From positions 1 through 42,500 of the forward strand of contig JAHBMJ010000456.1 in the NCBI GenBank assembly GCA_018398765.1: 42,500 nucleotides of DNA, in the 5' to 3' direction. The stretch comes from Chromera velia (lineage: Eukaryota > Sar > Chromeraceae). The notes beneath the pieces are model-generated. The model saw only the letters and a list, made by a program, of their open reading frames with translations. It did not search any database and was not told the origin of the DNA. Below are positions 2,418-42,054 of the stretch, piece after piece. The stretch's first letter is position 1, and each line of letters begins with the position of its first letter. A program made the translations under genes and the position numbers.

Positions 2418-5189
2418 CTAGCGTGCGAGAGGAGAGTAACCTTTTGGACTCCTGGAGCCGCCGCCTCGACCAGTCGAGGGGCTCCGTGGCGACGCCGCAC
2501 CTCCATAGAGAGCACCTAGGGGAACGCGCGAGATGGGGCCAATCGACAGATGTGCCTGTGAGCTCATGTTTCCAGCTGCAGCAACATCCAAAACTTCAAC
2601 CCCCTCATCGATATCGCTCTCATCAGCATCCATCTCCGCAACGCTATTCTCGCTGCGTCCCTCATTCTCCACCACCCCACTCCCTCCGGCACTCTCCTGG
2701 TCTATATGCCGAAACGAAACGCGAAGACGCCCCCCGCTTTCCCCGAGTTCCTCGACAGATTCCAGAGCTTTTTTGGGCGGTTCACTGTTCCCCAATTCCG
2801 ACGCTTCCGGCACTGTCCTATTTGACCTCTGCCTGTCGTCCACCAGAAAAACAGACGAGCCCATGTCTGCCTCTTCCTCCTTGTCGTCTGCTGTGTCCGG
2901 CCCCTGACCCTGCGTAACGCCCCCCCCAGTGGCCGTGGAGGTCTCGGCAGGGAAGTGCCCTAGTTCCGGAAACCGGGACAGAACGGAAACGGCAGCCCTC
3001 GAGCGACGTCGCACCACCGCCCTGCAAACAAACAGACAGACAGATAGACAACGCCCTGACAGGGCATATGCACACTATCACAAACCTTGCGTCCGTTTTT
3101 TGTTTCCACCCAAGAAGAAACTAGCTCTCTGACTGCCCGACTGACTGATGAATGAGGAGTGACTTACAATGCCACGCTGACTGCCGGACTGCAAATCCAG
3201 GAGAGACTGACCGAATGATGAGAGTGACGAGGATTGCCGACATCACCGGACGAACAAGAGATTCGAGGACAAAGGAGAACCCCGAGGATGTGAAGAAGTC
3301 CCGAATGTCTTCTGGAGAGGCGGCGTAGACGAGGGAGAACATCAGAAGGTAGTAACAAGAGCCGACAAACAGAATCACGGCGAGTAGACGTCCCGCAAAG
3401 ACGAGCAGGAACGCACGGCGCATATGATCATTTCGAAAGTCTTCGGGCAGAAGCCACAATTCATCCTGGCCATCTGCCTTTTCCTTCTCTCCTCCTCCTC
3501 CTTCAGCGCCCCCGTTGCTCGACATCATGGTGCACTTTCGAGTCCTTGAGAAGATATCACGGAAGGACTGGGCTCCGTTTTTGGCTTTTGGGTGTGTTGA
3601 AACACTGCTTCGAAAGAGTGGATTGCGTTCGGAAAAGAAAGAGAAGGCTTTGCAAAGTCTGGTGGGTTTGCGATTGTTGTCAATTAGGGCCTTTCCGTGG
3701 ATTTTCGTTTTCAACAACGACTCGACTTTGCTCATTTTCACCTCCATCCCCGCCTTCAATTCTGCAATTAAAGGCTCTAAATGGTACACATAGGGTGGGC
3801 GCCTGTACAGGAGTTTTTCTACAGTGAACTGAGGAATGATGGCGAGGATTTCGGAAAAAAGAACTGCGAGGATGACTCTAGTGCTCCCACTGAGGAACAC
3901 TGTGAAGATGCCAAGAAGGGCATTCAACACCTCAGCCAGAGCGAAGTCTGCCGGTTTGTATTCAGTTGCGGCCGCCCCATCAGCTCCGAAGAAGAGAGCG
4001 AGGATCTGCAACAAAGGTCGGAGACGGAAGTGACAGGAGGAAGTACTTTCTGAAAAAAGAAGATTCTCATCGTTTTTTGCAGGAACAGACACCAGAAACG
4101 AGAGTGAAGAACCAACATGGGAATTGAAAACCGAAAGAGAAGACAAAGCACACACAGAGAAGGGGACGTTGGATCATCGTCGTTCTCAGAGGAAAGCGTG
4201 TGTGTCGATTATCTACAGAGACTTCTGCCGCAATGAACGCACGGTCCGACAGTCTATAGAGAAAAAGAGGAATCGGTCGAGAGAGGACAACAACAGAGAG
4301 ACAATTATCGAAGAAACGTGCATTGAGGCTCTTCCTGTGTTTCAGTCCATGACCGCTTTCTGCTGCTGACCGCAAGAGAAAAGAGAACGTCCACGCTGGT
4401 CAAAAGCGCCTTGTCCACTCTCGTCAGCCCTTCGTCTTCGCACTTGACCACGTAAACAAAAGGGTGATCTCGGACAAAAGAATTCCACAAGGCGCGGGGA
4501 GTGGTCCAAAGCGCAAATTCTGTGTTTTCCTTCTTCCCATTCTCCCTTGCCAACGTCTCCCTCTTTGCCCACGTGTTCCGAATAGCGAGCGCTCTTTGAA
4601 TTCTCATCCCCCCCAACCGATTCTCGAGTGCGTCTGCAAACCCTGTCAGTCTCTTTCCATTCCCAACCACAGGCACTCCATCATTAGTGGAACGGATGGA
4701 AATCACAAACCGCGTTCTGGCAATCTTACAAAACACCTGAAGCAACAAACCCATGCGTGCCATATTCTCACGCACAGACACCCCACCCCCATCTCCACCC
4801 TGTTCAAGAAGCTCGAACGGGATTCCGCGGTCCCCCCTTCTGGTCGTTCCAGGTGTCTTCTCTCCACTACTCGACTGCCTGAACGCTTTTTGCAAAAAAC
4901 TGCGACGCCGTTTGCCCCCCCCTGGTCCCTTTTCCCCTTCATCTGCGGTCAGTCTACAATACCTCATCGCAACGTGTTGAACCCTCGTGAGGGATATGAG
5001 AGCAGAGTTGCCCCCCTGGGAAAGGAAAAGAAGCTGCCCGACCTCCTTGGGAAAGATCTCCCCCATCTCAGAAGCATCCCTCTTTGTGTCGCTCTCCAGC
5101 TGCATGATCCATGAATGCGTCCACAGAAGGAGAGTGCGTCTTTCACGCAATACACGCATAGACATGAACACCCACACATCTGCACACAT
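2418..5189 (-). other. C-terminal multi-TM region of the receptor (exons 20-22)
   Basis: Hydrophobic stretches occur at LNALLGIFTVFLSG/TRVILAVLFSEIL, at RLLAVILFVGSCYYLLMFSLVY, and at LVRPVMSAILVTLIIR. The order, with charged RR before a TM, then VYAASPEDIRDF, then SFVLESLVRP, resembles the TM4-TM5 part of polycystin-1 proteins (my reading by eye, not an alignment). The tail in exon 22 is acidic and disordered and ends in a Ser/Arg/Gly-rich stretch. No polycystin channel pore block follows. For the last junction I chose donor 3211/3210 (CG|GTCAGT) and acceptor TTTGCAG before 3021 because both are strong and the phases fit; the alternative donor at 3167 gives an early stop. Confidence 0.65.
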
Positions 5190-5249
<60 letters not shown>

Positions 5250-8200
5250 GCAGAGACTACCTTTGAGTATCTCATCTGGCCGTCGAGCGTCTTTTTTGGA
5301 ATCGACTGACCTTGATGCTCCCCTGTTTGGTAATTCCGACAGTCAGAAGCCACTCCCTGTCATTCGAAGACACGCAGTGCTCTTCCTGCTCTTCCTTTGC
5401 TCCTTCCGCCCCAGCAGAACCCCCCTGTACATGGTCACGTTTGGGTTGTTCAGAGAATTTCTCCGGAAGAAGAGAAACGCAGACGAGAGCCTCAAAGCCC
5501 TCCTCTCGTTCGTCGCCGCTCTCCACAGACCCCCTAGAGGGCTGAGCGCCCGTCTCCTGAGCGGTCTCTTTTTTCGAGGCGGTTGTTGGATGAATGGGAA
5601 GGAACAGCGATGGTCTCTGGGGGGAATTCGGCTGTGAAGGAGGTCGGCTGTCTTCTCCTTTTTCACTCATTCCTTCCTTCCTTTCCTCTTTTTCTTTCTT
5701 ATAATTCAATCCTTCCTCCTCTCCAGATTTCTGTCCCTTCCTCGACATTGAACGGGAGAGACTCGAGAGAGCGAGAGGCATCGGTTGGAGCACACTCCTC
5801 TCTGTTCTTGTTGGAGAATATTCGTCCTCTTCTTCTGATGAAGCCGCACCCGGAGGGGAGCTTTGAATGTGAAAATTCCCCTCTCCGCTGCGGCCCATAT
5901 GCATCGGGTGGTTCGGCACAGGAATGTGGTCAAAGTGTCTGCTTCGTCCTGTGTACGCACTGGCAGATACTGTGCGGTCGCCTGTGGGGCTGAAAGCTTC
6001 CCTTCCGAAATGGAGACCTTCTGAGACCGTGCTCAGCTCTATCTGGTCTGTGCGTATGCTGTCGTCCACATCTCCGTCTCTCTCTCTGACACTCTGGCCG
6101 GACTCGCTGCCTTCCGATGCCGCTGCACACATTCAAATTGAAAACAAAAGAAGAAGAACATGTGAAGAAGAAGAGTCTCTTTCAAGGTCGATGCAGAAAT
6201 GTGGAGTCCCTATGAAATTCACACTATGTCTTTGTTTTTATTTACCACGAGAAGACGTCCGAGTTTCAAGCAAATGCCTCCAAACTAAGTTCAACGATAT
6301 AAACAGAAAACGGGGATTTCAAAAGACGGAACAACCTTTCTTTTTTTCCAGAATATTTGTGCACAGGACAGCAAGGCCTTCTAGAAACTCCCATCAATGC
6401 CAAACCAAGCACGTGCCCCATACACTGAACTGACGCGGTGGAGCACCGTGTGAGCCCTCAAAGACCACTAGGGGAACTTCCGAGCTCTCGACTTCGTTGG
6501 AGGAGGAGACGGCATCTCCATGACTCAATAACTCGTCTCGGGCAATCTCGGAAACTAAATCGTGCAGCATTCCTTCTTCCCCCCCCAAAGATCCCCCCCC
6601 TCTCTGCCCCCCCTCCTTCCCGGAATCGTCTTCACTCCCTCCACCCACAGACTGTTGCTGCCCCCCCTCTCGCTGCTCAAGCTCTTGCTGTTTTCTTTTC
6701 CTGCGTGCGAAGATCCATCGAGCAATACGAATTGAAGCCTGCAGCTCGAGCCGCAGCGTGTTGCGTTCCTTCGCAGCCAGATAATCTGCAAATGCCCCTG
6801 ATCTCACCAACAGCCTCATCACCCCTTCCGTTTCCTTCCACGTCGGCTTCGGGATGGACGGCCGTGGGATGAACAGGGTAGCCACTGCATCTCTAAGCCT
6901 CCAGTCTGACAGGGGAAGACGCAGAGACGCTTCTTCTTGGGGTTCTTGGACGTTTCTTTTGGATCCTAGGACGGATATGCTTTTCTTCAGGGGGGTCTGA
7001 GTCAGAAGAGAAGATCTTTTTCGTTTCTCACTCTTTGACGTCAAGTCAGCTGAAGTGCTGACTCCTTTGGCATGTGAAGGTTGTGTGACCACTCCCGCCT
7101 CTTTCCCAAAAACCAAAATTTCACAATCTGGAAGAACTGCGAATTCGTTTGTTGACGGCTTCATACCCGACCGCAGCGCTTTCTCTGCAGCCTCCTGTAG
7201 TTCTGCAACCAAAGCGGCTTGATGGGACCGCCCTCCCTTTGCCATGAACGTTTCTTGCCACCAATGCTTAACTCTCCATGTCTGCATTGCCCGCAGAGAC
7301 TTCCGAAGTCCCTTGCATTTGCACATTACTGCACACCCCCTCCGCAGGTCCCATAGAGGCCGCCCCTCCATCAACCGGCCTACCACCGCATCATTGCCAA
7401 CCAAGAGCGAAATTCTGTCTTTCGGGGTCAAGAAAGGGCTCTTGTAATCTAGGACTGCTGCCCGAATTATGAACCCCAGACACAGAAGGGTGACGGCTGC
7501 GGTAATCCAGAGCAACACATTGTCAACTTTCAAATTCTCTGCAGCTTTCCCGAAGTCCCCTAAAACTGCGTAATTGGTGGAGGCAACGACGGTTTTGGCC
7601 TCATTGAGGAAAGACCCAAAGTCCGTGAAGTGGTTGCACCGACACAGCAAATGCGAACCGTTGTGCATCAAAGTCAGGCACCCATTCACAGACCACTCTC
7701 TCTCTCCATCGTTCCAGAAACGACATTCCTGCACAAACAAGTACGGCCATTAAAGAAATTATCAAAGTTGATTGGTGGGAAAATGAACTGAAAAAGAAAA
7801 AATGTCAAACAGACCCATTCCAAAGAAGATTGAAGGAAACCCAGGGCAAAATCATATTGGAAGATCGATCATGACTCCGGAGAAAAAGCCAGTCAGCAAC
7901 TCTTGTCCTTCGTTTCACTCCAGTCAAACCAGCCCTTCAGTCGATGTTTCCACATACGGAACCCCGCTCTTGCAGAGACCTTCGAAAGTCAGTCACACAA
8001 AACATTTTTGTTTTGTACGTCAGCCCCCCTCCCCCGCATCAGCCTGCTGACCCTTCGTGGATCTGGAGGTTCAGGAAGACCTCCGATGAGGGAGGTGTTC
8101 ACAGGGATGAGGATGTCTGCCCACTGGTCATTCAGGTTCACCTCCCCTGCCTCATTCCCGCAAACCGCAAACCCCACTGTGGTGGTCTTCCCCGTGATGT

Positions 8201-9908
8201 TCCGGCTCGCCACCGAGTAGTCATGGGGACCGTTTTCCCATGAAACCGTCCGAATCCATGAGGACCCGTCTCGGCCGTCCGCACAACTTTGTGGTGTCAG
8301 GGCTGCCATCAGCGCTGGAGAGTCCTTTGGGGGTGGCAGCTCGATTCGCATTCCGTTGGAGGAGTCAGATATGACAACGGGTTCTGTGCGTGTCTCCACT
8401 TCCGCAGAGGTCCGGGCAAGCCGACGCACGCCAATCGTGAGTTCGTCTGACTGCATCACCTCCTCGTCTCCTTCGGCTACCGACTCCAGAATTTCAGCTG
8501 CGAAAGAAGAGAAAAACGATAGATGAAAAAGCATACAGATGAAAATGTGGATGGATACGATGACAGCACGTAGACAATGAAGAATCATAGGTGTGCTGCA
8601 ACATCACACTTTCTGTCCCCAAAATCGGAGACCTTAGGTGGAAAACGTCGGCGGGAAGGCCAAAGAAAAGTGACAGAATTAAGAAGAGACGAGGAGAGCA
8701 GGATACATCCTGCAGTCTCTCTCATCAGTCTTCTCATCTGATCCGGACTCACCGAGGAGGTTTACTGCCGAGACCATGGGAGTCGCGCAAACCTCCAAAG
8801 CGGCCGCTCTCTCCGACGCCACTCCAACGTCTACCACACTTCCCGCCGCTGCTGCCTGTCTGCCCGTCCCGCTTGCTCGAGAGAGAGACCCAAGATGATT
8901 CACCATCAGACGTGCAGCGTCAAAGAAAGAGTCTCTCACTGCGCGGGTGGCTGACTGGGGCTGCCCCCTCGATGTGTCTCGGAGGATTGCCAGTGTCTCC
9001 ACGAGACTTTCACCTGCCTGCAAAAGGAGGGAGGTCCAAACGAACTGAAACGCGACTGGAATGCGAATTGACATAAGTCATGTCAGTGTAGCCGCTTTCT
9101 CATCCGCTGTCACTGTCCAACAATATTTGTTACACAAAACGGTTGAGGTCTCCTCTCCACAAAAGGCCAACTGAATTCAAAGCGGAAAACAAGTCAGAAA
9201 GTTGAAAAAGCATTATCGGGGTGTAAGAAAGTCTGTGAACGGATACGCACGCAGCCATAGACATTTTGGACCTGTTTTGTGACGGAATGCTGTTGACTCT
9301 GCGAGCTGTGCGACGTTCCTCGATCACTCTGCTTCTCTACTGACCACTCTCTGGGCCTCTCTGAAAATTGCATGCATTTTCTTTCATACAGAATTCTTTT
9401 TCAGGGAGCGCTCTGTATGAAAGAATTCTGTATGAAAGAAAATGCATGCACTATTTCTTTACTGACCACTCTCTGGGCCTCTGCCGCACGTCGCACGCTC
9501 TCTGTCCCTCTTCCAACATCCGCCCGCACGTCCTCTTCAACAAGCGAAGCAACATCAGAGCTTGAGGTCGATCTGAGGGCCTCCAGGGTCTCTTCGGCCG
9601 CTGCCTCCATGTCTTCTTGGTCAAACTCATCCCTCTTGGCTGCCCTTCGGAACAGACTGGCTGCTTCACGGAGTTCATCCGCAATCGCTTCGACACTCTG
9701 CAGGACGCACAGGAAAAATCAGAAGACGCCAGAATTCTTCGATCGCACAAACACTCTAAATTATAGACACACAGGCTTACCTTTAGATGCGGAGACCCAG
9801 TGAAATGTACCCCAACCAACCCTCACCCACCCACCCATCTATTCACCCACCAGCCCGTACAGGGAGACAGAGAGACATGAGAGGGAAAGAGAGATAAACA
9901 GACCGACA

Positions 9909-9942
<34 letters not shown>

Positions 9943-9953
9943 CAAACAGACAA

Positions 9954-9994
<41 letters not shown>

Positions 9995-10414
9995 TGCAAA
10001 AACAGTCAAAGACGCACAGGTGCATTGATTTGTTTGTCTGGTTCTTAAGGTCACCCGATTGACGCGTTAGTCTTTCTTGACGACTTTAATTGATCTGTCT
10101 GCATGACCGATCATCTTGCGCTACCGGTAGATACCCTTTTGGTGTGTTCCGCTGACCTCCAAAATTGTTGGATCCTCTTTGATCCTTTCCTTGGCCTTTT
10201 CTTTGATTTTCTTGAATCTCTCCTTGACGGATTCGGATACCTCAACCTCCCCCGTCTCCCTGTCAACTGCAGGAAAGACGAAAAGCAGAATGGGCAAATA
10301 CAGTGGAACACTTTTTGGCTAGAAACGTAAGCTCGCACGCAAGAAGAGCGGCCGAAGAGAGCAAAGAATCAGCACACGAAAACACGCACACACATACACA
10401 CACACACACACATA

Positions 10415-10455
<41 letters not shown>

Positions 10456-13400
10456 CTGACCACACGCGAAAGCCCCGGGAATGTTCTGGCAGTCCTGGGT
10501 ATCCGTGTCACACGTGTGCTCACCCGAAGCACATTCGTCCTTGTCCTCACAGGTGATGGCTCCACTCGTGTCGCTGCATGCAAAGAGGACGTTGCAGAAA
10601 CTAACGCCTTTTTTTGATTGAGTGGGTGTGTTTTCTCCATTCTGGGTATGGCCATTGTCTCATTCAAAATTTTCACGAAGTGTGAGAGATCTTCCAATGG
10701 AAAAAAGGAAACATGAAAAAGGACCGAGCCACGCAGGTTCAAAGAAAGAGAAACCAGAGAGAGAGCCAGGAATGAAAGGGGTGGAGGCAGTGAAATGGAA
10801 GCAAAGATTCGAGCACAGCTACTGTGCACAAAAAGCCAGAAGGGAAAGAGTCAAAAATGAAAGGCATCATCTGAGCAGAGACCGCATCACCTGAGTACGC
10901 GGTTGAGCTATCCGTTCAGCAGAATTTAAAAAAGACATTGGTAAATCAGTCTAGTAAATCAGTAAATTCCACAGCAAATTCCACCAAACACCTGTGATCA
11001 TGCATGCTTACGTGTGTGTCTTCTTGAATCCGGATTTGCATTTGCAGTTGATCCCGGCTCCCTTTTCCTTACAGTCCACTTTTGCACTGGACCCGCAAAA
11101 GTTTGCACTTGATTGACAGAGGCTGCAAGTGACCGCGTCAACCTGATGGGTCACCAGCCAGTGTGTGGGGCATCGTTGGTGGCAGCCTTGGAAGATGTCA
11201 GAGCAGTCTTGGTTGGACAAAGTGCACTCGCTACACCCCGATGTAAGTACGTGGAAGTCCAGAGCTGCAAAATAAATTGAAATCAGTTCTTGTCTTGTGA
11301 TTCGTGTTTAATTTCTTGAGGCAAAGAATTCTTTAAAATTCTGCAAGTTTCTCCCCCAAAGAACTTCAACGCAAAAAAAGAGAAGTGAACAATGCCGAGT
11401 CAATAGAGATCAAAGCAAGAAGCCAAGAGTGAGGAGGAGGTCAGATGGGGCTTTTGGAAGAGAGAAAGAGAGAAATAAACACTCGCCTGTAGACTGAAGG
11501 GTCGAGAGCAAAAGAAGGAAGATACATTTGAATTCGTACGGCAGGAGAAAGCCAAGTAAATGAAAAAAAGAATGAAAACACATCAAATAAAATCGAGAGT
11601 GCTTGGCAGAAGCTCTATTGTGAAGTCAACTCATCAAAGCAAACCCTTCAGTTCAAAAACGAAAAGGAAACTGACTAGGGCCAAGTCCTGATAAGATGTA
11701 TGCCCCCCCTAATTGTCCCCTAAGGTTGTCCCCGAAGCACTGGATTTTGGCGCTTCCTGTTCGAACACAGCAGTGCTTTGCGAAGGCCCCGCAGAAGAGG
11801 GCGTCTGGTTGATCGTCGAACAAGATCATGTCTTTGAATTGACCGTTCACGAATTCGTTCCCGACTGCATGCTTGCATGGGAGCAGTTTTTGTGGATGGA
11901 TCAACTGTATTGAAGACTCCCCAAACGCAACAATGCAGAGGACAGGTCCAAAAAACAAATGTTTTTCTCATGCATGGCTTTGTATCTCTCATGGCCCCCA
12001 GTTGTCCAATCAATCTGTAAGGAGCAGAGGGAGCCTTTCGTTCTGCCATTTCATCAGTGGCTTGACTGACTCATTCTTCTTCTGATTGACTGACTGGGAA
12101 GCACATCCTGCAGTCTCTCAGTCAAACTCTCTCTCTCTCTCTGCCTGCCTGCCCTGCATCTTGCCTGTCTGACTAACTGCCAGTGAAAGCACATGAGGGT
12201 TGACCGACCGCAAAGAGCTCCGTAGTTTCCTGTTGTTGTGTTCCTTGCTCTGGCGCATGTTGCGTTCTGCAGGAAGACAAAACACCTAGTTTTCTGTGTA
12301 CGATAGCTCGTGGGTCTATGGATTCATGTTCTATGTAAGTCACGACCATCTGTCTCTCTCGCTTTGAACACTCCTCTCTGGTTCCTTGCAACACACGCGA
12401 AATTTGAATTAATGATGTGGAGGTTATTTGATTGACCCGTTCGGGCAGCGTATGACATGTTGTTAAAACACTGTTCTTCACCTTCAGTTTCCTTTTTCCG
12501 TGCCCTGCTCCAAGTAACCCGATAAACATATTTCCAAGACCCTTTTTCGACGAAGCGCGAAGTCAGAATGCGTTTCGCACTCTTTCTTGTTTAACAGCGA
12601 CTCACTCACGTTTCCTGCCGTCAGTCCGTGGATTGTGTAATCAGTTCCGTTGCCCCAATGCCACTCCTTGAATGTTGTTCCCGTATTGCCGAGCTCGTTG
12701 TTCTGGTCACCGACGTTGCGGGTGTCCCCATTGCCGAGCTGTCCGTCGGTGCTGGAAGGAGTAACAGAGAGGGAGACAAGGTGTAAGAGAGCATATTACA
12801 CATGTGGGGGACAGAATAGTAGGACTCAATCCCATTGGAAGGGGGAGTCAAAGAGAAACGCCAAGGGATCAATAGAAAGAGACAATCAAAGGCGAAGAGA
12901 CGTCTTCACGTATGGACAAGTCGACAGAAGAATCTGAAGGCACATGCATGCAGAGAAGGACTAGAGAGAACAAGAAGCAATTAAGGTGAACACGTGCGCA
13001 TGTTGATCTCCACTCCAAACTCACTCACTCACTCACTCACTCACCCACACACGCACTCATTACTGACTTCTGTCCCCAGCAGTACCACTTTTTCAGTACA
13101 CTTGTTCGCCCACACGCGTGAAAGTTTCCAACCTGCAAGACACATCCAGGAACAGCCAGAGGAAAACAAAAGGGCACATTCACCTCATTGGAATGTGATC
13201 TCCCTCTGATGCTGCACATTTATGTCGTGGAGGCCTTCAGGAAAGAGGCGTGAATAGACTCCCTGGTCGTGTTGCTTATTTGATCTCGGCTTTGTGTCTT
13301 TCGTTCCTGCTTTTCTTTTACGGGGACTCTCTGAAAAACCCCTTTGCCCTTGTCTGCTTGTCCCTGAAACGTGATACACATACAGGCATTCCTGGCGATT

Positions 13401-13816
13401 TTGGGAGCAGTCTGGGGAGCAAATACATAGACGCACAAGGAATGGTCGGGAGACACAGGAAGGAAAGGAAGATAGAGACAAAAGCCCACCGTCAGCTTAT
13501 CAGGCTCTGCTACCGTCCCTGGATCCTCGTCAGGAAACAAAACGTCCTCCAGTCCCGCCGCCATTTGCACTGCGGTTTGCGAACCCCCCGGCCAAACAGG
13601 TTCCGTTGCATTGTTCGTGCGCCCCAGCTGCAAAGTCGTTGAGTGGAGATCAAAACCGACTGCTTGAAAGAAAAGAAAATCGGAGGAAACGAACTTAAAT
13701 GGGACAAGACAAGCAACAACAACCACCGAGCACGCACCCCTTTGATCTGCCTTGTTTAGGTTTCTGACGCCAAAGTAAAAGAAACCATCTCGAGATTGAT
13801 TTTGCTCCTCCGTCAA

Positions 13817-13857
<41 letters not shown>

Positions 13858-13899
13858 CTCTCTCTGTCCAATTCAGCCGTCCAGATGCACAATCAGGCA

Positions 13900-13932
<33 letters not shown>

Positions 13933-16523
13933 GCAGACACACTCACCTGTCCAAATTGGTTCTCCCCCCAACTGCACAAACGCATGTCAAAGAAATGAGC
14001 AGAAGAATCGCACAGCAAACGCTGACACGCCTCAAAAGGGAGGGCATGAAACGATAAAACGGCATTAGAAACTTCTCTGTAACCAGATGAGCTGAAGCAA
14101 AGAGACTGTCATTATCGTCGAAGAAGATACCATCTCCCCTTAAGTACTATCACACTCGCAAGGAGATAGAGACGACCGCAAGTGAGGTGCAGACACGCGA
14201 AAAATCCCCCTATGAGCCCAAACACAGAGTTCCAATTTGCTGGTACAAAGAGAACTGCTTTGGAGCTTTAATTTCAGTAACAAGTGCCACAGATAGACAA
14301 AGTGATTCAGATATAAACAAAAACAACCCACAACCATGAACACGATTCTTCGTCTGCATCTTGTCAGAAACCGTTTTTGACCGTCAGTTCCTGACTATGA
14401 CATGCTCTAGAGACTGACCACCTGATGCTCTCCCTTCCCCAGGAGTTACCGACTCGGTAGGCCCCCAGGGCACACGCAAACTGATGTCCGCATCCCAGTT
14501 CCTTCGCCATCCAGGCTTCACTCGAACCGTTGGCTACGAACGGCACCCAGAATTGGCCTGGTGGGGGGCGCAGAGGTAAATGCAAAAATGTATAAAGGTG
14601 ACACAAAAGAGAAAAAGGGACAAAAAGGGCGGTCCAGGTGACTCTTTCTAGTGGTGAGTGAGTGAGTGAGTGAGTGAGTGAGTGAGTGAGTGAATGAGTG
14701 AGTGGGTGAGTGAGTGAGTGAGTGAGTATGTGTATGAGAGAGAGAGAAGAAGAAAGAAAGAAAGAAAAAAAGAAAGGAAAGAAGGAAGAAAGACAGAAGA
14801 CAAAAAAAAAAAGAAAGAAAGAAAAAAAGAAAGAAAGAAAGAAAGAAAACAGACAAGAAACAAAGAAAGAAAGAAAGAAAGAAATCCGGAAAACCTGTTC
14901 AGATTGAACGGTTCCATGGCATGTATGCGTTTTGACTCGTTTCCTCTCTCTCCCCTCCTTCCCTCCTTCCGGCACCCTTCTTTTTGTTCCGTCTGTCTGT
15001 GTGCCTGGTTGGCCTGGTCGTTTCACTGTCGTTCACATACTCACTTCCCCCCTTCCTTTTGTTGCTTGGGGTCTCTTCCTGCGAAAAAGACAAATTTTAC
15101 ACTACTCACTTGCTGCCGTCTGACACCAAACATTCCCATAGGCAGAGTCCGTTGCACCTGGGTGAACTGCACAAGAAAAGTCATCCCCTGCACAGACGGC
15201 GCTAGCAATGTCGGAATCCTCATCAGTGGCGTTGGCGATCTCGAAGAAGGGAAGGTTGTCTCCCATCCTGCAGAGAATTAGAAGGAGAACGGCGCTCACG
15301 GTGAGGTCGTCAGGTAGTCTTAGAAGCAGTCAGACTGTCAGACCGACAATTCACAAAAACAGAATGCTGCGTTCTCCATGAATTCTCTCTGTCGCTCGCC
15401 AATCAAGGAGGCAGGTAACCCGTTTTTGGCCTCGAACCAAACACGTGCTGGAAGGAACACCAAGGATCTCCTCTGCCCTCCCTCCCTTCCGTCCCCTTCC
15501 CTTTCAACTGACTCCATCGTGTCGTCTCCTCTGTTGCTTGTGTCCGTCGCGTTCATCGTCAACTGAGCGCTGTCTCCCCTCCCCCTGCATCCATTCATTC
15601 TTCCACTCAGAATGCATTGCAACAGAAAGCAAGCAGATGCTTGTAGAATGAAGAGAGACCCCGAGAGAGAAACATGGAAAAGAGATACAAGACAAACGCA
15701 TCGAACGACGACGCGTCTCTCTAGCTAGGTTCAGAAATCAGCGCGGCCGGGCAAAACAAAAGAAGCCCACCATGAATGAAAAACGAATAGTTGAATTTCA
15801 AACCCAATCCAGCGACCCTTCCTCCATCCATCCGGCATTCCTTTTTCTGCCGATTTTTCCCCCTCCCTCCTTCACACTTGCACAATTCCCCTGACTCACC
15901 AGCACTTGGCCCTTCTTGGATGCGCATCGTTGGTGAAACTCCGGTACTTCCCGGCCGCACAAAAGTGGTCGAGACCTCCAGAGATTTCCTCCACGATCGT
16001 CAGATCAGACCCGACGTCTATCTGCACATGCACTCACATTTGTATAGAAAAACATGCAGACGGACTGTTACACACACATGAACACACGCAAACTGGGACG
16101 CGAGCACAGAGAACCTTCTGCTGGAATGAAATCGAAAAACGGACCCCAAAACGCCGAACACACATCTACTGCACGCGAAGGAAGGAAGGTCACAAGGAAT
16201 TCAGGTGGGCGGCGAGAAAGATCCAGAGATCCTCAACTAAAAGACTCTTAAGCATCTGAAGGGGGGACGTAGGTCCTCTCTTCTTTCTCTGAATTCCAGA
16301 TGCGTACAGACAAGAGACGTGCAATGGTGCACCTTTACTCTCTTCCAGCATGTGTCTTTAAATTGCTTTCTATCTGTTCCATTTCGATCAAAGGTCTACT
16401 CCAGAGCAGGACCTGCTGACCAGCTGCGTTGCCGAAATCGAAAGGGGCGCTCCGCTAAATCCCCTGCCGAGCTGACCGTAGTCGTTCTGACCCCAACCTG
16501 AACACACACTCGCAGATGCAAAG

Positions 16524-16557
<34 letters not shown>

Positions 16558-17301
16558 AGACACACACGCTAGTCCGAATGCTACAGTCATAGAACGGAAA
16601 GGATCCGTGATTCGGGTGCAAGGAAGGAAACAAGGCGAAGAAGAAGCGGGGCTCGGACACAGAGGGGCACTCTCATGTACAGGAATGTTGTGTTAGATGC
16701 CCGAAAAGAGCTAGACAGGTGCGGAGAACAGAAGAAGAAGTTTGGATTTGGAACGGGGAACCATTATGGACCGTCCAATTGAATTTGCAGTTTCAGAAGG
16801 CAATGACTTCGTCAAGCTTGTGGAGTAGACCGACCGACCGACCGCCTGTCTGAGTGAGTGAGTGAGTGACTGACTGACTGACTTCTATGTATATTGACTT
16901 GCTGACTGACTCACCAATTGGATAACTCATCGAGGAACCAAACAGCTCACTTACTGCTGTACTGACTCACAAACTAAGAGACTTAGTTACTGCTGAGTGA
17001 GCAACTGACTGACTGACTGCCTGACTGCATGACAAATTGACTGACTGACATTTCATCTCCCCCGAAAATTCCCCGTAGGCGCATGTGGACTCGCTGGTCA
17101 TCACGACCTTCACGGCTGCATTTGATGAAGCAATGCAAAAAATGTTACTAATAGAGGCACGAATTGTGCATCGAAAGGTAGGCATGCGGCACTGTTAGTG
17201 AGAACTGACTGACACCCACAAGATCCTTGGCCCAAAAGTGAAAGAATGAGAATGCATGGAAGCAGGGTCCGGAAGCCTCTGTTCCACTGTGTGGGCTTCA
17301 T
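2418..17301 (-). CDS. RCC1-repeat/EGF/GPS receptor with polycystin-1-like membrane region (22 exons)
   Basis: Large cell-surface protein, about 2,321 aa. Exons on the minus strand: 17214-17301, 17050-17115, 16421-16497, 15900-16021, 15110-15267, 14419-14557, 13947-13971, 13514-13627, 13068-13132, 12610-12751, 11676-11904, 11012-11264, 10461-10573, 10157-10266, 9467-9697, 8753-9017, 8052-8497, 6435-7728, 5311-6122, 4371-5189, 3212-4005, 2418-3021. All junctions are GT-AG, the phases agree, and the total is 6,966 nt with one stop. Order: signal peptide (1-25), RCC1-like repeats (to about 408), EGF-like modules (about 409-530), Ala/Glu-rich helical stretch, GAIN-like region, GPS (882-918), first TM (about 952-974), long disordered cytoplasmic loop, further TMs, acidic tail. 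The GPS implies autoproteolysis in the ER, as in adhesion GPCRs and polycystin-1. Role inferred: sensing at the surface or cilium. Least certain joins: 8/9 (donor GTAGCA) and 21/22. Confidence 0.85.
5193..5249. repeat. (CA)n followed by (GA)n microsatellite in intron 19
   Basis: About 18 CA units (5193-5228) pass directly into about 10 GA units. On the transcribed strand this is (TC)n(TG)n ending in GCAG, so the microsatellite itself forms the pyrimidine/TG-rich tract of the exon 20 acceptor. Confidence 0.95.
6435..7728 (-). other. Exon 18 of the receptor: GPS cleavage motif, first TM, cytoplasmic loop
   Basis: The exon opens with a complete GPS: ECRFWNDG, then W, GC, and CRCNHFTDFGSF, i.e. 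C..W..W..GC..C-x-C-x-H-F-T-x-F. Cleavage is expected between F915 and T916. About 35 residues on lies a hydrophobic segment (VLLWITAAVTLLCLGFIIR). The remaining 320 or so residues are charged and Ser/Gly/Gln-rich, hence a cytoplasmic loop. The preceding exon 17 (8052-8497) has the beta-rich character of a GAIN domain (AVCGNEAGEV, WADILIPVN). Polycystin-1 has a PLAT domain after the first TM; I cannot recognise one here. Confidence 0.85.
9338..9482. repeat. 31-bp inverted repeat flanked by 23-bp direct repeats in intron 15
   Basis: Perfect inverted arms 9369-9399 and 9420-9450 (TGCATGCATTTTC at the outer ends) enclose a 20-nt loop. A 23-bp direct repeat (TACTGACCACTCTCTGGGCC core) lies at 9338-9360 and 9460-9482. 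The second copy contains the exon 15 3' end and its GTCAGTA donor; the first is a downstream duplicate of that splice site. Confidence 0.95.
9897..9994. repeat. Compound (GGCA)n/(AACAGACA)n/(GACA)n microsatellite
   Basis: Intron 14 of the receptor. GGCA units (9911-9943) change into AACAGACA and then GACA units. Open frames across it (Cys/Leu/Ser-Val repeats) are artefacts of the tetranucleotide repeat. Confidence 0.95.
10382..10453. repeat. (CA)n microsatellite in intron 13
   Basis: About 35 CA units with a few CATA interruptions. It begins within 10 bases of the exon 13 donor, whose intron reads GTCAGTCGTGTGTG on the transcript. Confidence 0.95.
10461..11264 (-). other. Cys-rich/EGF-like modules of the receptor (exons 12-13)
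   Basis: Exon 12 is cysteine-rich (CSECTLSNQDCSD, CHQRCPTH, CSLCQSSANFCG, CKCKSGFKK). Exon 13 carries a calcium-binding EGF signature: DKDECASGEHTC followed by CQNIPGAFAC, matching D-x-D/N-E-C...C-x-N-x-x-G-x-F-x-C. The join of the two (phase 2) restores the usual CKCKSGF-loop-DKDEC spacing between adjacent EGF modules, which supports both splice sites. Confidence 0.8.
13018..13050. repeat. (ACTC)n microsatellite in intron 9
   Basis: Seven or so ACTC units just downstream, in transcript direction, of the exon 9 donor. Confidence 0.9.
13819..13937. repeat. (TC)n and (CAGA)n microsatellites in intron 7
   Basis: (TC)17 and interrupted TC repeats at 13819-13865, then about eight (CAGA) units at 13903-13937. 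The second block ends about 10 bases from the 25-nt exon 7 (13947-13971). Confidence 0.9.
14653..14888. repeat. (GTGA)n followed by (GAAA)n long microsatellite
   Basis: About 19 GTGA units (14653-14728) followed by about 150 bp of imperfect GAAA units. It occupies much of intron 5. Lysine/glutamate-rich and Phe/Leu/Ser-rich open frames here are repeat artefacts. Confidence 0.95.
16521..16568. repeat. (CA)n microsatellite in intron 2
   Basis: About 22 CA units with one CAGA interruption, 25 bases upstream (transcript direction) of the exon 3 acceptor. Confidence 0.95.
17214..17301 (-). other. Exon 1 of the receptor: start codon and signal peptide
   Basis: The ATG at 17301-17299 starts a short basic segment (MKPTQWNRGFR) followed by a hydrophobic core (TLLPCILILSLLG) and small residues (GSCG), a classic signal peptide. 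Donor TGTCAGT, phase 1. This fixes the N terminus and extracellular orientation of the downstream RCC1 and EGF modules. Confidence 0.85.
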
Positions 17302-18175: not shown

Positions 18176-21100
18176 ATGCCCCTCCACGTGCCCTCTGAGT
18201 TTCACGGCTCCGTTGCACACGACGGCAAGGTGACCGACCAGGTTCTTAAGGTTCCGACCTTGAAGGATGGGGAGGTTCTTGTGAAGATGATTTGCTCGGG
18301 AGTGTGCCACACGGACCTGCACACGATGAAGGGTGACTTTAAGGGTTTCCAGAAGGATGCCGTGGTCGTTGGCCACGAGGGTGTCGGGAGGGTGGTCCTC
18401 CACGGCCCCGGAGTGACGGAGACGGACATGCCGTTGGGAACTCGGGTGGGACTTCCGTGGATGCACAAGTCTTGTGGGAACTGGTCAGTTGATCCAACAG
18501 GCTTTCAATCATCAGTCACATGCTTTTTTCAGTGGATCACGCATGCATGCATGCATGCAGGCAATCGTATGCTGAGGGAAGGAATTGAACCGGAACGTTG
18601 CTGGCCACTTGACAGAGATCAGAGCGAAAAGAAGAAAGAAAAAACTAGGGCCCAACGAAAGAGTGACGAATGTGTGACAAGTGGAAGTGAAGAGGATTGT
18701 ACGCACGTTGTGGGACGAGAGAGAGACAGAGACACAGTGATCCTTTCATCCGGTCTCGGACGCGAGCTTCGTCCTCTCCCTTTGAGCCATTGAATCTATC
18801 TCTGTATCAAATCCTCTTTTCCCCTTTGCAGCGACGAATGCCGCAGTGGCTGGGAGACGCTGTGTGGTCAAATGGGCTGTACGGGCTGCTCTGAAGACGG
18901 CACCCTGGCTGAGTATGCAAAGTTCCCCGCAGCGTTCCTGGCCCCCATCCCTGACGGTCTCTCTGACGAGCAGGCTGCACCGATTCTCTGTGCAGGGGTG
19001 ACGACGTACAAAGCACTCAAGGAATCGGCAGTGCGCCCTGGTGAGTTCAGTCGGTTCTGCCTTTTGGCTTATTTATCTGTCAATTTGTTTGTTTTTGCCT
19101 CTACCCGTGTGGAAATACAAAAAGGATGAAAGGTCTGTCTTCCAGTCCCTGTCTGCCTTCTTTCAAGCTGATGTATCCATGTGAGGAGATGAAAACAACG
19201 CAGAGAACGGCCTTCCGTTCATGCCTCCCATGCAGGTCAATGGATTGCGATCACTGGAGCAGGGGGGGGACTGGGGCACCTGGCTGTGCAGTACGCCAAG
19301 GCGATGGGGATGCGAGTGTGCGGACTCGACGGAGGCAGTGCGAAGATGAAATTCCTACACTCCCTCGGGTGCGATGCGTGCGTCGATTTCACTCAGGTGC
19401 GTTTTGTTTTGTGGTCTGCAGAGCTTCTCTCTCCCAACGGTTTTTTTGTGGGAGTAGTGCCTGAGAGCTGGTTTGTTTTTTTTTATTGTCGGCTGTACAT
19501 GGATGGGTTGACTCATGGAACGACTTTTTTTGAACAGGATATTAAGGATGCAGCACAACAGCAGACACATGTTTTATCATTGAAAGAAAGACGTGCATGG
19601 AATCTTCTATGCATGTGAGTGGTTCACACATCTCTTGTTCCCCGCCCTCTTCCCATTCGGGCTTTCTTTGCCACTTTCGCCGTCCGTTAAAGTGAAGTTC
19701 AATGCTCCGAGTCCTCTCGTTCCCCTGTCCTTCAATTGAGAGATGCATACATGGAAGTCTGTGTACAAACAAGGGCGATCATCTGAATGGACGGAGGGAG
19801 AGATGGTTGTCTGATCTGTCTGCAGAGTGCCGACGTCGGTGAGGAGATCAGAAAGGCCACCGGAGGAGGGGCCCACGGAGTTATCCTCCTGGCGGCCGTC
19901 TCCAAATCCTTCACTCAGGCTATCGACTACCTGCGTCCTCGTGCCACGGCCGTGTGCGTGAGCCTGCCGACCGGGGTGGGTCTGTTGTTTCCATGTCTTC
20001 CCCCTGTGTGTTTCGATTGATATCACCTTTTGTAGTGTGTTGTGGAGGGCTTTCTGATGATGCTTCGGTCCGCTGTACACCGAAAGAGAGAGAGACTGGC
20101 ATGCAGGAAATCGAATGTAAATATTTGCATGTACAAACAGGGGCTTAGATTTCTTAAGTGTCTGATGCCGAGGGGAACTTATGAGGGAAGTGAGAGTGGG
20201 AAGGTCCATACCGTAGTCATTCAACCAGTCTCCCTACAGTAATCTTTTCTTGTTTCACGTCGTACTAATCTATCTTTCTGTGTTGCATCTTCTGTATCAT
20301 TACGTACGTGTCTAGAGAAAACGAAATGAGCGGGAAAACGAATGATGAACTCGTGAAATTCTTCAATCTGCAGTATGTCTTTCCTTCCCTTCATGCATCT
20401 TTGTGTCCTTCCTTTCTTTCTGTCTTTCGTTCTTTGTTTGTGCAGAACTTCGGCGTTCCCCACACGTCTATCGTCCTGAAGTGTGTCAACTTCAAGGGAT
20501 CCTATGTCGGCACACGGTTGGACATGGCAGAGGCCATGCAGTTCGCTGCAGACGGAAAAGTGAAGTGCCAGGTGGAAGTCAGGTCTGTGGGTGGAGGGGG
20601 GAGGAAGAATTCCAGCTCGAATGGGTTAGGATGAGAATGAAGTCTGTCTGGTTTGTTCTGGCTGTCTCACTGTCTATTTCATCTGTTTGACCGCTATTGC
20701 ATTTGTTTATGGGTTCAGATAGATGCGTGAAGAAGTCTTGTGATATGGTCACTGGCTTGCACGACGGTCTCTTGTCTTTCGTTCGTTCGTTCGATCCACC
20801 CGAATCGAACACTTTTGCGTTGTGTGTCCATCTGTTTCTCATATAATCTGTTCTCTTATGTGTTTGTCTGTTTGTTTCTTCCGATGGTCGCTGCAGAGAA
20901 GGGCTTGATCACTTGCCGAAGATCTTTGAGGAGGTCAGGGGGGAAGCACGGGCTTGTTCATACGTTCCCTTTTCCTTCTGTTTGTTCGTTTCCTCTGAGT
21001 TCTACATTCAGGCCCCCATTTGGCCCTCTGATCTCTCTGATGCTTGCATGAAGCTGTTTTTCCTCTTTTCACACTCTGCCGTTTTTTCATTCTTTCCTTC

Positions 21101-21206
21101 TTTCCTTTTTTCTTTCTTTCTTTGATGTCTGCAGATGGAGGCTGGCAAGATCAACGGCCGCATCGTCATCAAAATCGGGTCCTGTGACGGCGCCTCTCCA
21201 AACTAA
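18176..21206 (+). CDS. Zinc-containing alcohol dehydrogenase, MDR family (7 exons)
   Basis: Oxidises alcohols or reduces aldehydes with NAD(H), probably in the cytosol as no targeting signal is seen. Exons: 18176-18483, 18832-19040, 19236-19396, 19826-19975, 20446-20582, 20897-20933, 21135-21206; phases agree and the product is 357 aa, normal for tetrameric microbial ADHs. Catalytic zinc ligands: C44 (GVCHTDLH), H67-E68 (GHEGVG) and the Cys of PILCAGVT. The structural zinc set is C100, C103, C106, C114 (CGNCDECRSGWETLC), with C103 made by joining exons 1 and 2. The Rossmann motif is TGAGGGLGHLA, and the Asp in CGLDGG favours NAD over NADP. The C terminus (GLDHLPKIFEE/MEAGKINGR) matches the family's last helix. 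It resembles the fungal/bacterial ADH1-type branch. Start: first ATG, with no in-frame alternative upstream. Confidence 0.95.
18542..18560. repeat. (CATG)n tetranucleotide run in ADH intron 1
   Basis: Four to five CATG/GCAT units inside the first intron of the dehydrogenase; like the run at 17666-17682 in the divergent promoter region. Confidence 0.85.
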
Positions 21207-23081
21207 CTGTGCGTGAAAATAAATAACCATGAGGAAAGGAAAAAAATACTTACTTATTCTCTTTTTGGAAGGAAGTCGAAAGAACAAGGGGGCGAGTGGG
21301 CTTCCCCACAGCTTCACGGATAGACATTGCAGCAGAGGGGAACAGAGAGAGAACCCCCATGCACGCACTTCTCGATGAGGCATGTCATACTGAGGTTTGA
21401 AGAGAAAAATTCTTCCCGACCTCCTCACTGCTTTCTTTGTGTGCATCAGTTTTGCGTCATTGGAGCTGGGGCTGCTCTCTGTAGGTGCATATATGAACTG
21501 CGTTGAGGCATTCGATCGTTCGATTGCCCGATGTAGCCCTCTGCCTGTATGTATGTAACTGCACAGCCTCGAGACATCCGTACGTGTGTCTTGATGTCAA
21601 ACCGGTTGGGGCAACAATGAATGATGGAATTGAAGAGGAAGGTTGGAGGGAGAAGATGACACGGGTCGCGGCAGGTAATCGAACCAAAAAAGAAGGGTCA
21701 AGCCAAGTAAGATAGACAGACAGCAGGACGTACCCCGAGAAGACGGTTGGTGCGGCCCTTTCGATCGATTCGTTGCATTTTCTTTCCATGTATTCATGTG
21801 AATCAGTTACAGCTCCGTTATGTGTTTGTGCCTTTGACATACAGCTCCGTTATATGTTTGTGCTTTTGAAATGAGGACTCTGTCGGTATGCGTGCGCATA
21901 CTGTTTTTTGCTTTGCGTGTTTGCCGTGGGTGTCGTCCGATAACGCGATCGATTGCGCATTTGCGGCTTGGCTCTTCGTGTGATGCATGCATGCTGTTCG
22001 TTGTCTGATGCTCGTTGAATAAATGGATGTGTGCACGGAAGTCCTCGCGTGTTCTTCTGACTTTCGTTAAGGGTCGCAGCCTCGCAACAGCTGCCAGTGG
22101 CACCAACGTTCTTTGCAGTCTGCGGCATGCACTCGAACTTCAAATGTATTCCTAGATGCATTATATAAGCAAAAGCTTTGATGTACTTTGATGTAATGTA
22201 TTGAATCCAGCGACCAAATTCGGACCACTTAAGAACTTGAAGTGACAGTCACTGGCAGAGCAGTCAGTGCCAGTCCGAGTCACGCGGCATGTCAGCGGGC
22301 AGAAGAATGCATTTTAAATACATATTCAAAAAAATACTTTATAAAATAACGTCACTATCTGAATTAGAGATGTTAAATTGGTTTAGCATCATAATAATTA
22401 CATCATAACTAATCTGAAAATAATCTTTTACCTGACTGGTTAGTTAAACTTGGCATAACTTCGTAAAATAGCAAACTGAACAGCTGAGCAGCCTAAGCAC
22501 TAGCCTAAGCATGTTTTATAACTTTTTGTGGGCCTATAAATATAAGTTCTATTATAGGACTTGGATAGAGTATTATATAATTTCATGGGATCTCTTATAG
22601 GTAAGCTGACGCGGCTACTCTAGAAAAAAACTTATTTAAAAAAAAAAAAAGACTTTATCAAATTATAATTTTAAAAGTCTCTCTATATATACACAACATT
22701 ATGGTAAGCGTTGGAGAATCTATGGGAATTGATAACAAAACTTAGGGAAATTCTAGTGAAATTCCTGGTGGGTTCAAATCTACGGGAAATTTAGAGGAAA
22801 TCTCACGTGATACTGATTTAATTGGTGCCCTCGGTAGAGCACTGTCGCCGTTCTACCAACTTGAAAAGTCGCCTCTGCGAACAGCAAAGGTGCGCTTCAC
22901 GGAGGAAATTTGCACTCAGAGGGGGGGGTAAAAGTTGCCGTAAAACGACCTCCCCCCCCCCGGGAATCTGAAGGTTAGGCACGCAATGCCACACATCCAT
23001 TCCCGCAAATAACGCATCAAACGCGGGATTCAAACCTATCTAACCACACACCACACACTTTTCTTCGCCTGCAGGAACGCA
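21207..23081. other. Convergent intergenic spacer
   Basis: No gene supported. It holds a two-unit tandem duplication (CAGCTCCGTTATNTGTTTGTG at 21809-21830 and 21842-21863), an AT-rich island at about 22300-22820, and a G8...C10 inverted homopolymer pair (22921-22928 and 22952-22961). Both neighbouring genes end towards it, so 3' UTRs are expected at each edge. Confidence 0.6.
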
Positions 23082-30450: not shown

Positions 30451-30715
30451 ATATGCTGTATATGCTCGCGTGTAATAGCGCCGTGTATCGGTCGGATTCT
30501 TCAATTGTCCATGATCGAGCATTGAATTAACAGAGGGTCACTTCAACCATTAAGTTCAATATGAAGGAAGCATGCCAGAATGCGATTCATGGGTAGAGGT
30601 AAAGGTGGAGAAAGTCTGGTCCATAGTCGCTCACTAAGTCTGCTCCCTCGGTTTGTTCTTCAGAAGGACATTGAAGAACTGCATATCCTGAGTTGAGCAT
30701 TCAAAGTCCGCTCGT
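30451..30715 (+). repeat. Direct duplication, copy A (265 bp)
   Basis: Matches 33195-33462 with about nine substitutions and one 3-bp indel, both starting ATATGCTGTATATGCTCGCG and ending AAGTCCGCTCGT. The flanks are unrelated. Copy A is followed by no recognisable gene. Confidence 0.95.
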
Positions 30716-31342
30716 GTCTAGCTTTGTACACCCCCGCGACCTGGCTCAAAGGGTAACGCACGCGAGTGAAGCCTAATCACGACACCCATCCGTCACGCAA
30801 CGTGCAATACAACAGCTCCGTACAAACGATCACGAAAAGTTTGTGCCAACGGTGGTGGAAAGTTCGAGCCATGCGCATAACTGTATCCGCGAAAACTTCA
30901 AGAAACGTGCCCCTCAAGCAACCTATGCGGGATTAACTCTTTGACGTAAGCATACAACTCAATTAATTGGGATGCATCTGTATAAAAAGATCGATCTCGG
31001 CCACGCAAATGCATTTAATTAAGCTATAGGATCTTCGAGGGCAAAAAAAAACTGGTATAGGACAGACATAGCTGCATATTCTCCTGTACATCTGGAGGAT
31101 GGAGGTAACAGGCCCACCAGTAGGTCCAAATTTGTAGTCAATCCTGCGTTTGTGCATGCAGCTAAGCAACAGCTTTTTGACTGACCTTGCTACGAGAATT
31201 AGTGAAGTCTGCATACATAGTTCAATTAAGCTTCTGTCTGAACACGTGGTAAGAGAATCAAATCTTCAGGCCAGAAGTCTTATATGAAGATAAACACGCA
31301 GACGTTGAACTTCTCTCCACTTTCACCTTTTCTACTTTAATA

Positions 31343-32200
31343 ACGGCCTCTCCACTTCCATCTTTCTATCTCTTTACATGACGGCCTCTCCACTTCCATC
31401 TTTCTATCTCTTTGCATGACGGCCTCTCCACTTCCATCTTTCTGTCTGTTTGCATGGCAGCCTCTCCACTTTCATCTTTCTGTCTGTTTGTATGACGGCC
31501 TCTCCACTTTCATCTTTCTGTCTATTTGCATGACGGCCTCTCCACTTTCATCTTTCTGTCTGTTTGCACGACAGCCTCTCCACTTCCATCTTTCTGTCTG
31601 TTTGCATGACGGCCTCTCCACTTCCGTCTCTCTGTTTGTTTGTATGACGCCTCTCCACTTCCATCTTTCTGTCTGTTTACATGACGGCCTCTCCACTTTC
31701 ATCTTTCTGTCTGTTTATATGGCAGCCTCTCCACTTTCATCTTTCTGTCTGTTTGCATGACGCCTCTCCACTTTCATCTTTGTGTCTGTTTGCATGACGT
31801 CTCTCCACTTTTATTTTTTTGTTTGTTTGTATGACGGCCTCTCCACCTCCATCTTTCTGTCTGTTTACATGACGGCCTCTCCACTTTCATCTTTCTGTCT
31901 GTTTACATGATGGCCTCTCCACTTCCATCTTTTTGTCTGTTTACATGACGGCCTCTCCACTTCCATCTTTCTGTCTGTTTGCATGGCAGCCTCTCCACTT
32001 TCATCTTTTTATCTATTTGCATGACGGCTTATCTACTTTAATCGTTCTGTCTTCTTGCACGACGGCCTCTCCACTTTCATCTTCCTGTCTGTTTGCATGA
32101 CGGCCTCTCCACTTCCGTCTCTCTGTCTATTTGTATGACGGCCTCTCCACTTCCATCTTTCTTTCTTTCTTTCTTTCTTCTTGCACGACGGCCTCTCCAC
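31343..32200. repeat. 38-bp minisatellite, about 22 copies
   Basis: Unit core GACGGCCTCTCCACTT followed by a variable CATCTTTCTGTCTGTTTGCAT-like half. Units vary by point changes and short indels (CATGACGCC versus CATGACGGCC). Degraded units run on to about 32480 and reappear at 32985-33065. Open frames across it on both strands arise from the repeat itself. Confidence 0.95.
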
Positions 32201-33462: not shown

Positions 33463-33489
33463 TCCTTCCTTGGGACACAGAGTCAGAAA

Positions 33490-42022: not shown

Positions 42023-42054
<32 letters not shown>

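Follow-up and report, generated by a model that had tools for sequence, protein, structure and literature searches.

A probable GAIN/GPS-type surface receptor with RCC1 and EGF modules in Chromera velia

Introduction

Receptors that carry a GPS motif are best studied in animals, as the seven-transmembrane (7TM) adhesion G-protein-coupled receptors (GPCRs) and polycystin-1. Several adhesion GPCRs have an EGF module in front, and in polycystin-1 the GPS is followed by a first transmembrane (TM) helix, a big loop, a helix pair, another loop and a second helix pair, which make up the first five helices. Here we describe a gene in a stretch of 42,500 nucleotides (nt) of Chromera velia DNA (assembly GCA_018398765.1, contig JAHBMJ010000456.1, positions 1 to 42,500, forward strand; hereafter the window). 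It is, in our judgement, probably a single eukaryotic gene, rich in introns, that encodes a GAIN/GPS-type receptor of the cell surface, where the proposed function is read from sequence. The receptor likewise has an EGF module in front of its GPS.

In part of the text of PMC12716839 the GAIN domain is stated to predate the Holozoa, and in a section of PMC13197933 polycystin-1 is described as an atypical adhesion GPCR, which has a GAIN domain and responds to its tethered agonist. The extracellular propeller of the receptor kinase CRINKLY4 carries C(X10)CWG in each repeat and is accompanied by a TNFR-like Cys-rich domain (excerpt of PMC4617170). The CRMP proteins are numerous in Chromera velia (excerpt of PMC9815656) and have been regarded as possibly analogous to adhesion GPCRs (excerpt of PMC9670195).

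Gene structure and product

The receptor gene runs on the minus strand from 17301 to 2418 and was spliced by hand into 23 exons, which encode 2,335 amino acids (aa) in a single open frame. The order in the product is a signal-like N-terminus, an RCC1 part, a Cys-rich segment, a calcium-binding EGF module, a helical stalk, the GPS, TM1, a loop of about 830 aa, about four TM helices and a tail. All 22 introns have GT-AG borders and the donor is GTCAG or GTGAG in 18 of them. The exons and main features are as follows.

17214..17301, minus: exon 1, start codon and signal-like segment, aa 1-29; without paralog support
17050..17115, minus: exon 2, N-terminal half of first RCC1 blade; C-X10-CWG spans the exon 2/3 junction
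16421..16497, minus: exon 3, first RCC1 blade, WGQNDYGQLG (Pfam)
15900..16021, minus: exon 4, second RCC1-like blade, by eye
15110..15267, minus: exon 5, third RCC1-like blade, with spliced alignment to C3392; intron after aa 170 conserved
14422..14557, minus: exon 6, RCC1-like blade; spliced alignment to C3392
13947..13971, minus: exon 7, 25 nt, WGENQFGQ of RCC1 blade; exons 7/8 together hold the best Pfam RCC1 stretch (aa 216-249)
13490..13627, minus: exon 8, RCC1 blade (Pfam)
13068..13132, minus: exon 9, RCC1 blade, C-X10-CWG completed by exon 10
12610..12751, minus: exon 10, RCC1 blade, TDGQLGNGDT; intron after aa 339 conserved
12174..12266, minus: exon 11, RCC1-like blade; 3' boundary the least certain of all exons
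11676..11904, minus: exon 12, final RCC1 blade, CFGDNLRGQLG; intron after aa 446 conserved
11012..11264, minus: exon 13, Cys-rich segment; 36% identity to C3392, E=2.6e-9
10461..10573, minus: exon 14, calcium-binding EGF module (DKDEC...), PF07645
10157..10266, minus: exon 15, stalk
9467..9697, minus: exon 16, stalk; intron after aa 682 conserved
8753..9017, minus: exon 17, probable GAIN subdomain A from alignment of paralogs; intron after aa 770 conserved
8052..8497, minus: exon 18, probable GAIN subdomain B from alignment of paralogs; intron after aa 919 conserved
6447..7728, minus: exon 19, GPS, linker, TM1 and start of cytoplasmic loop
7615..7728, minus: GPS motif with HF-T cleavage tripeptide (Pfam)
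7450..7524, minus: TM1, aa 988-1012 (hydropathy, charge counts)
5311..6122, minus: exon 20, low-complexity cytoplasmic loop; intron after aa 1617 conserved
4371..5099, minus: exon 21, loop end, conserved LWxxPRxLWxSFxRDHPFVY block, first half of TM2; intron after aa 1860 conserved
3182..4005, minus: exon 22, remaining TM2, short re-entrant-like helix, TM3, TM4 and TM5; intron after aa 2134 conserved in C959
3814..3882, minus: TM3, aa 1902-1924 (hydropathy, model, charge counts)
3334..3414, minus: TM4, aa 2058-2084 (hydropathy, model, charge counts)
3202..3282, minus: TM5, aa 2102-2128 (hydropathy, model, charge counts)
2418..3021, minus: exon 23, cytoplasmic tail and stop codon

Splice sites were picked by eye for an open frame and matching phase, with the RCC1 consensus as a partial guide. 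Since an open frame was a criterion in choosing the sites, the frame and its phases are not independent proof of one gene, and independent evidence has to come from paralogs. The model is weakest in exons 1-4 and at the 3' end of exon 11.

Paralogs and conserved introns

Profile searches covered 177.8 Mb in 4,040 contigs of the genome, where the window is contig C455. By BLAST and a spliced aligner, paralogs elsewhere in the genome were found to align with the receptor protein in the same order. C3392 is co-linear with it over the RCC1 part, the GPS and part of the loop. The aligner was blind to the window introns, but its query was the hand-spliced model protein. Alignment extends from aa 117 on in C3392 (query cut at aa 1760) and from aa 110 on in C185; the query was supplied from aa 501 on for C1291 and C3948 and from aa 1701 on for C959.

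Introns recur at the exact position and phase in C3392 (9/17), C185 (4/19), C1291 (4/10), C3948 (4/9) and C959 (2/2). Over the five contigs together, 11 of the 22 window introns recur, namely those after aa 170, 339, 446, 530, 568, 682, 770, 919, 1617, 1860 and 2134, and no match in any of the five was observed for those after aa 29, 51, 77, 117, 215, 224, 270, 291, 370, 605 and 1346. In a control where positions were slid by 9-90 nt, the mean number of matching introns was 0.006-0.16 (0.07 for C3392) and never more than one. C3392 breaks off within the conserved TM2 motif, where it is 84% identical over 31 residues, and C959 begins just past this motif; the two are therefore probably halves of one gene cut by a contig end.

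Predicted ectodomain and GPS

Residues 1-1085 of the spliced product, which include the predicted ectodomain and the GPS, were scanned with Pfam profiles. RCC1 (PF00415) was matched in three stretches with E=1.7e-9 (38.5 bits, cut-off 21.7) and RCC1_2 (PF13540) with E=6e-8 (32.7 bits, cut-off 22). The full RCC1-like domain PF25390 scored 51.9 bits, under its cut-off of 150, and about seven blades were counted by eye. The RCC1 part spans 417 residues with 19 cysteines, and the C(X10)CWG pairing is exact in two of the roughly seven blades (aa 41 and 277), with a CFG variant in a third (aa 415). A C-X(8-20)-C[WF]G pair was found in none of six partial RCC1 frames sampled elsewhere in the genome, a sample that did not include the RCC1 parts of C185 and C3575. 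The nearest solved sequences to the RCC1 part are those of UVR8 (best E=2.3e-5), which is not a surface protein but a UV-B receptor of plants. The EGF_CA module (PF07645, aa 541-569) reached 28.8 bits, over its 27-bit cut-off, when the Cys-rich segment was scanned alone, and a signal-like hydrophobic segment was observed at aa 10-35 by hydropathy.

The GPS (PF01825, aa 920-957) was matched with E=1.3e-9 (38.8 bits, cut-off 22.5). It has four cysteines and two tryptophans, and these columns are invariant in all five aligned sequences. The cleavage tripeptide is HFT, and H-L/F-T was present in all 12 frames found by pattern among the 14 GPS loci of the genome, where the pattern missed the other two. 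Against PDB sequences, the GPS part matched ADGRL3 (E=1.3e-8) and other adhesion receptors. A block of about 230 aa ahead of the GPS is conserved in the aligned sequences; a weaker hydrophobic stretch at aa 753-774 in the hydropathy profile is read as part of the stalk. TM1 follows about 30 residues past the cleavage site.

The sequence-only reading of this DNA had proposed one uninterrupted frame of 22 exons and 2,321 aa, in which a signal peptide, RCC1, EGF_CA, GPS and several TM segments are joined. Resplicing gave 23 exons and 2,335 aa, and the co-linear paralogs with 11 of 22 introns recurring bear out the single frame. Pfam matches both GPS and RCC1, as well as EGF_CA, in one product, and hydropathy adds the signal-like segment and the TM segments. 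The same reading held an extracellular RCC1 propeller to be unusual; it is, but this was overstated, as CRINKLY4 is a precedent in plants (excerpt of PMC4617170). A sensing role is put forward as a proposal in that reading and in the present one.

Membrane block

The hydrophobic segments are TM1 (aa 985-1015) and clusters at aa 1845-1926, 2054-2090 and 2102-2133, with none beyond aa 2133 by hydropathy. The loop of about 830 aa between TM1 and TM2 has conserved blocks near both ends, and much of it appears to be of low complexity by eye. Hydropathy and charge counts fit a topology with the N-terminus outside, then TM1, the large inner loop, TM2 and a re-entrant-like helix; these are followed by TM3, another loop on the inside, TM4 and TM5, and the tail lies inside as well. 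The re-entrant-like character of the short helix between TM2 and TM3 is predicted with modest confidence. At E<=10, residues 992-2335 gave no Pfam match, including kinase, 7TM, PLAT and channel families, in a search where the HMMER filters drop most weak matches.

The receptor family

Fourteen GPS matches were found in the genome by profile search, and the neighbourhoods of the window match and seven of the 13 others were examined (in C100, 4,192 of 30,000 bases are N). EGF motifs lie upstream of the GPS on the same strand in seven of these eight (C455, C3392, C185, C1291, C859, C100 and C3575); in the remaining one, C3948, about 2.9 kb of contig is left upstream of the GPS. RCC1 lies upstream of the GPS in four of the eight, by motif in C455, C185 and C3575 and by alignment only in C3392. 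In C3575, RCC1 and GPS share a contig and possibly a gene. REJ was matched at six places in the genome, five of them over the cut-off, and in C3608 and C3495 a GPS follows on the same strand, about 2 kb downstream of it.

Matches to the TM block downstream of the GPS are strong in C185, C3948 and C1291 and weaker in C859 (E=4e-6) and C100 (E=0.013). Weak matches on the GPS strand, 5-6 kb downstream, were also observed in C1987 (E=0.0056), which had no REJ match in the genome profile search, and in C3608 (E=0.0072), where the match is to the TM4-5 block. A further 16 contigs match the TM block (E below 1e-10) without a GPS match, and the block therefore occurs in other proteins too. No Pfam family fits the members of this group that were scanned. 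The contigs with the TM2-5 block and no GPS match are:

C9, C3760, C276, C686, C1128, C2471, C1379, C3521, C1532, C3675, C107, C216, C564, C3862, C693 and C182

Identity to paralogs, in optimised alignments that inflate the figures somewhat, is 46-63% for the GPS, 61-75% for the TM2 block and 48-58% for TM4-5. The segment after TM1 is 60% identical to C3392 and 40-44% to three others. The RCC1 part, compared with two paralogs only, is at 31-37% less conserved than any of these. Within the family, the outside part would appear to vary (RCC1 with EGF, EGF arrays and probably REJ) on a related core.

In addition, the 3' part of exon 21 is found again in C298 (L061 1980-2381), with 47.8% identity over 136 columns and 83% over the last 47 residues. 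Within the 5 kb examined, no credible match to other receptor exons was found, and this copy may be the relic of a gene or a single stray exon.

Points that weigh against the receptor reading

Several observations count against a GAIN/GPS receptor encoded by one gene. The gene model is built from genomic sequence with hand-picked splice sites, and exons 1-4 have no support from the five paralogous contigs. C3392 gave a poor spliced alignment, which runs across one stop codon midway through the RCC1 part. Alignment is also poor over the RCC1 part of C185, whose assignment rests on motifs and not on the spliced alignment; another stop codon is crossed in the C185 loop. Because of these stops, the middle of the RCC1 part in C3392 and the loop in C185 are unreliable as models. 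The aligner set 33 introns in C185, and those placed in poorly conserved stretches are probably not real.

Furthermore, EGF_CA scores 24.9 bits in the context of the long protein, which is just under the 27-bit cut-off, and outside the GPS motif the GAIN region matched no solved GAIN in a profile search of PDB sequences. The TM block fits no recognised family or fold among Pfam families and solved structures, and its AlphaFold models are modest, with a predicted local distance difference test (pLDDT) of 66.9 and a predicted template-modelling score (pTM) of 0.47 for the receptor, and 70.7 and 0.60 for a distant homolog. Five GPS contigs (C3495, C612, C3575, C3801 and C1755) have no TM-block match.

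Proposed function

In GAIN/GPS receptors the chain is cleaved, which here corresponds to the bond between F and T; the fragments are held non-covalently and the freed N-terminus activates. The receptor would be expected to cut itself at HF-T, and the large RCC1-EGF fragment would stay bound outside the cell, where the propeller and the EGF module may bind a ligand or a neighbouring surface. Release of the fragment, or tension, would then expose the new N-terminus (T-D-F-G...) to the membrane bundle, which could signal through the conserved inner blocks.

A family in a seemingly distant protist with a constant GPS and membrane core, and RCC1, EGF or REJ outside, would show that swapping of heads on a self-cleaving core is an old design. 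Such a family would also allow one to ask where on the core the freed peptide acts.

Alternative explanations

The sequence-only reading had described the membrane region as polycystin-1-like, and it is possible, although in our view unlikely, that the protein is a true polycystin-1-type subunit, where the TM block would be the first five helices of polycystin-1 and would pair with a separate PKD2-type channel. The order of helices is as expected for TM1-5 of polycystin-1, and this part of the description stands. The same genome has the REJ-GPS loci C3608 and C3495, with the weak TM4-5 match of the former, and seven PKD_channel matches, all on contigs without a GPS match. However, the REJ, PLAT and channel domains of polycystin-1 were not matched in this protein. 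No REJ was matched in aa 1-1085 and no PLAT after the first helix in aa 992-2335 (Pfam, E<=10); the C-terminal channel domain (TM6-11) is without a Pfam match and no hydrophobic segment is left to form it past aa 2133. PLAT was also unmatched in the genome, in a weak search where the controls were silent too. A search of PDB sequences with TM-block profiles turned up no polycystin, in a set without a control for the presence of polycystin-1, and structure searches with the modest-confidence TM-block models gave no significant match and listed no polycystin. Since the TM block is unmatched by profile or fold and the REJ, PLAT and channel domains are absent, we filed the receptor as a variant of the GAIN/GPS receptors and not as polycystin-1. 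The polycystin link is partly supported and kept alive by the two REJ-GPS loci, one of which matches the TM block weakly. More speculatively, there may be a separate class of self-cleaving surface receptors, which would have polycystin-1-like first five helices without a channel or 7TM region and exchangeable REJ, EGF and RCC1 heads. If so, this class may give a picture of polycystin-1 before its fusion to a channel. The odds of this reading are lowered slightly by the fact that the TM block is matched at one REJ locus and not at the other.

We also doubt that the protein is an adhesion or wall anchor without signalling, where the GPS would permit shedding of the RCC1-EGF part and the membrane block would merely hold it. 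Such an anchor would be consistent with a region from TM1 to the end in which Pfam finds no known signalling domain, and with a loop largely of low complexity. Nevertheless, conservation is higher in the segment after TM1 and in the TM blocks than in the RCC1 part, and this suggests that the membrane and inner part have a function.

Less probable by far are two adjacent genes, of which one (17301 to about 10150) would encode a secreted RCC1/EGF protein and the other (about 9700 to 2418) a multi-pass GPS protein. The Pfam matches do form two clusters and splicing of the locus was read from the genome; C1291 and C3948 are silent on RCC1, because they were aligned from aa 501 only and the contigs end soon after. 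A break between two genes is contradicted by C3392, which has the same order with introns conserved on either side of it (after aa 446, 530 and 568, and after aa 682, 770 and 919), and by C185, which carries RCC1 motifs, EGF, GPS and TM block in the same order on one strand. The spliced frame is also stop-free throughout, although its sites were chosen for that.

An ordinary 7TM adhesion GPCR can practically be dismissed, as one TM helix, some 830 TM-free residues and then about four helices are found with no 7TM family match, even though ADGRL3 is nearest to the GPS among solved proteins.

Neighbouring features of the window

The rest of the window holds the following features. Start codons of the alcohol dehydrogenase gene and the receptor gene, which are arranged head to head, are about 0.9 kb apart.

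18176-21207, plus: intron-containing alcohol dehydrogenase gene, ADH_N (PF08240) E=1.6e-13 in first open frame; exons and gene end by eye
23082-26303, minus: 1,073-aa frame with protein kinase domain, PF00069 E=6.8e-22
Upstream of the kinase frame to about 29.3 kb: putative ankyrin-repeat exons, by eye
30513-30731 and 33260-33478: 219-bp direct repeat, 93% identical, flanking a 38-bp minisatellite
31343-32166: the 38-bp minisatellite, 21.8 copies
33490-35337, plus: 615-aa ankyrin-repeat protein, single frame
37066-38802, minus: 578-aa open frame, no Pfam match at E<=0.001
41703-42385: AGAC tetranucleotide array, 169.8 copies

Comparison with known systems

With adhesion GPCRs the receptor shares a GPS with four cysteines, two tryptophans and H-X-T. 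It differs in having one helix, a loop of about 830 aa and about four helices instead of seven, and in having RCC1 in front. The word RCC1 is absent from the main text of the choanoflagellate GPCR paper PMC12716839 and, over its first 300,000 characters, from the adhesion GPCR review PMC13197933.

In the polycystin-1/REJ proteins (suREJ, PKDREJ), as in the receptor, one helix comes after the GPS, and then a large inner loop and helices in pairs. The receptor is without their REJ, PLAT and channel domains, and its TM block has no sequence match to polycystin.

The apicomplexan CRMP proteins are similarly large and multi-pass with EGF-like modules. They have nine TM helices, and the term GPS occurs in neither of the two texts (PMC9815656, PMC9670195).

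The plant receptor kinases CRINKLY4/ACR4 resemble the receptor in their secreted RCC1-like propeller with C(X10)CWG pairs and in a Cys-rich segment on a membrane receptor, although the pairing is exact in two to three of about seven receptor blades and present in each CRINKLY4 repeat (excerpt of PMC4617170). In contrast to these kinases, the receptor has no kinase domain by Pfam and has several TM helices, a GPS and an EGF module. The Chromera receptor would provide a second setting, beside CRINKLY4, for an RCC1-type propeller outside the cell.

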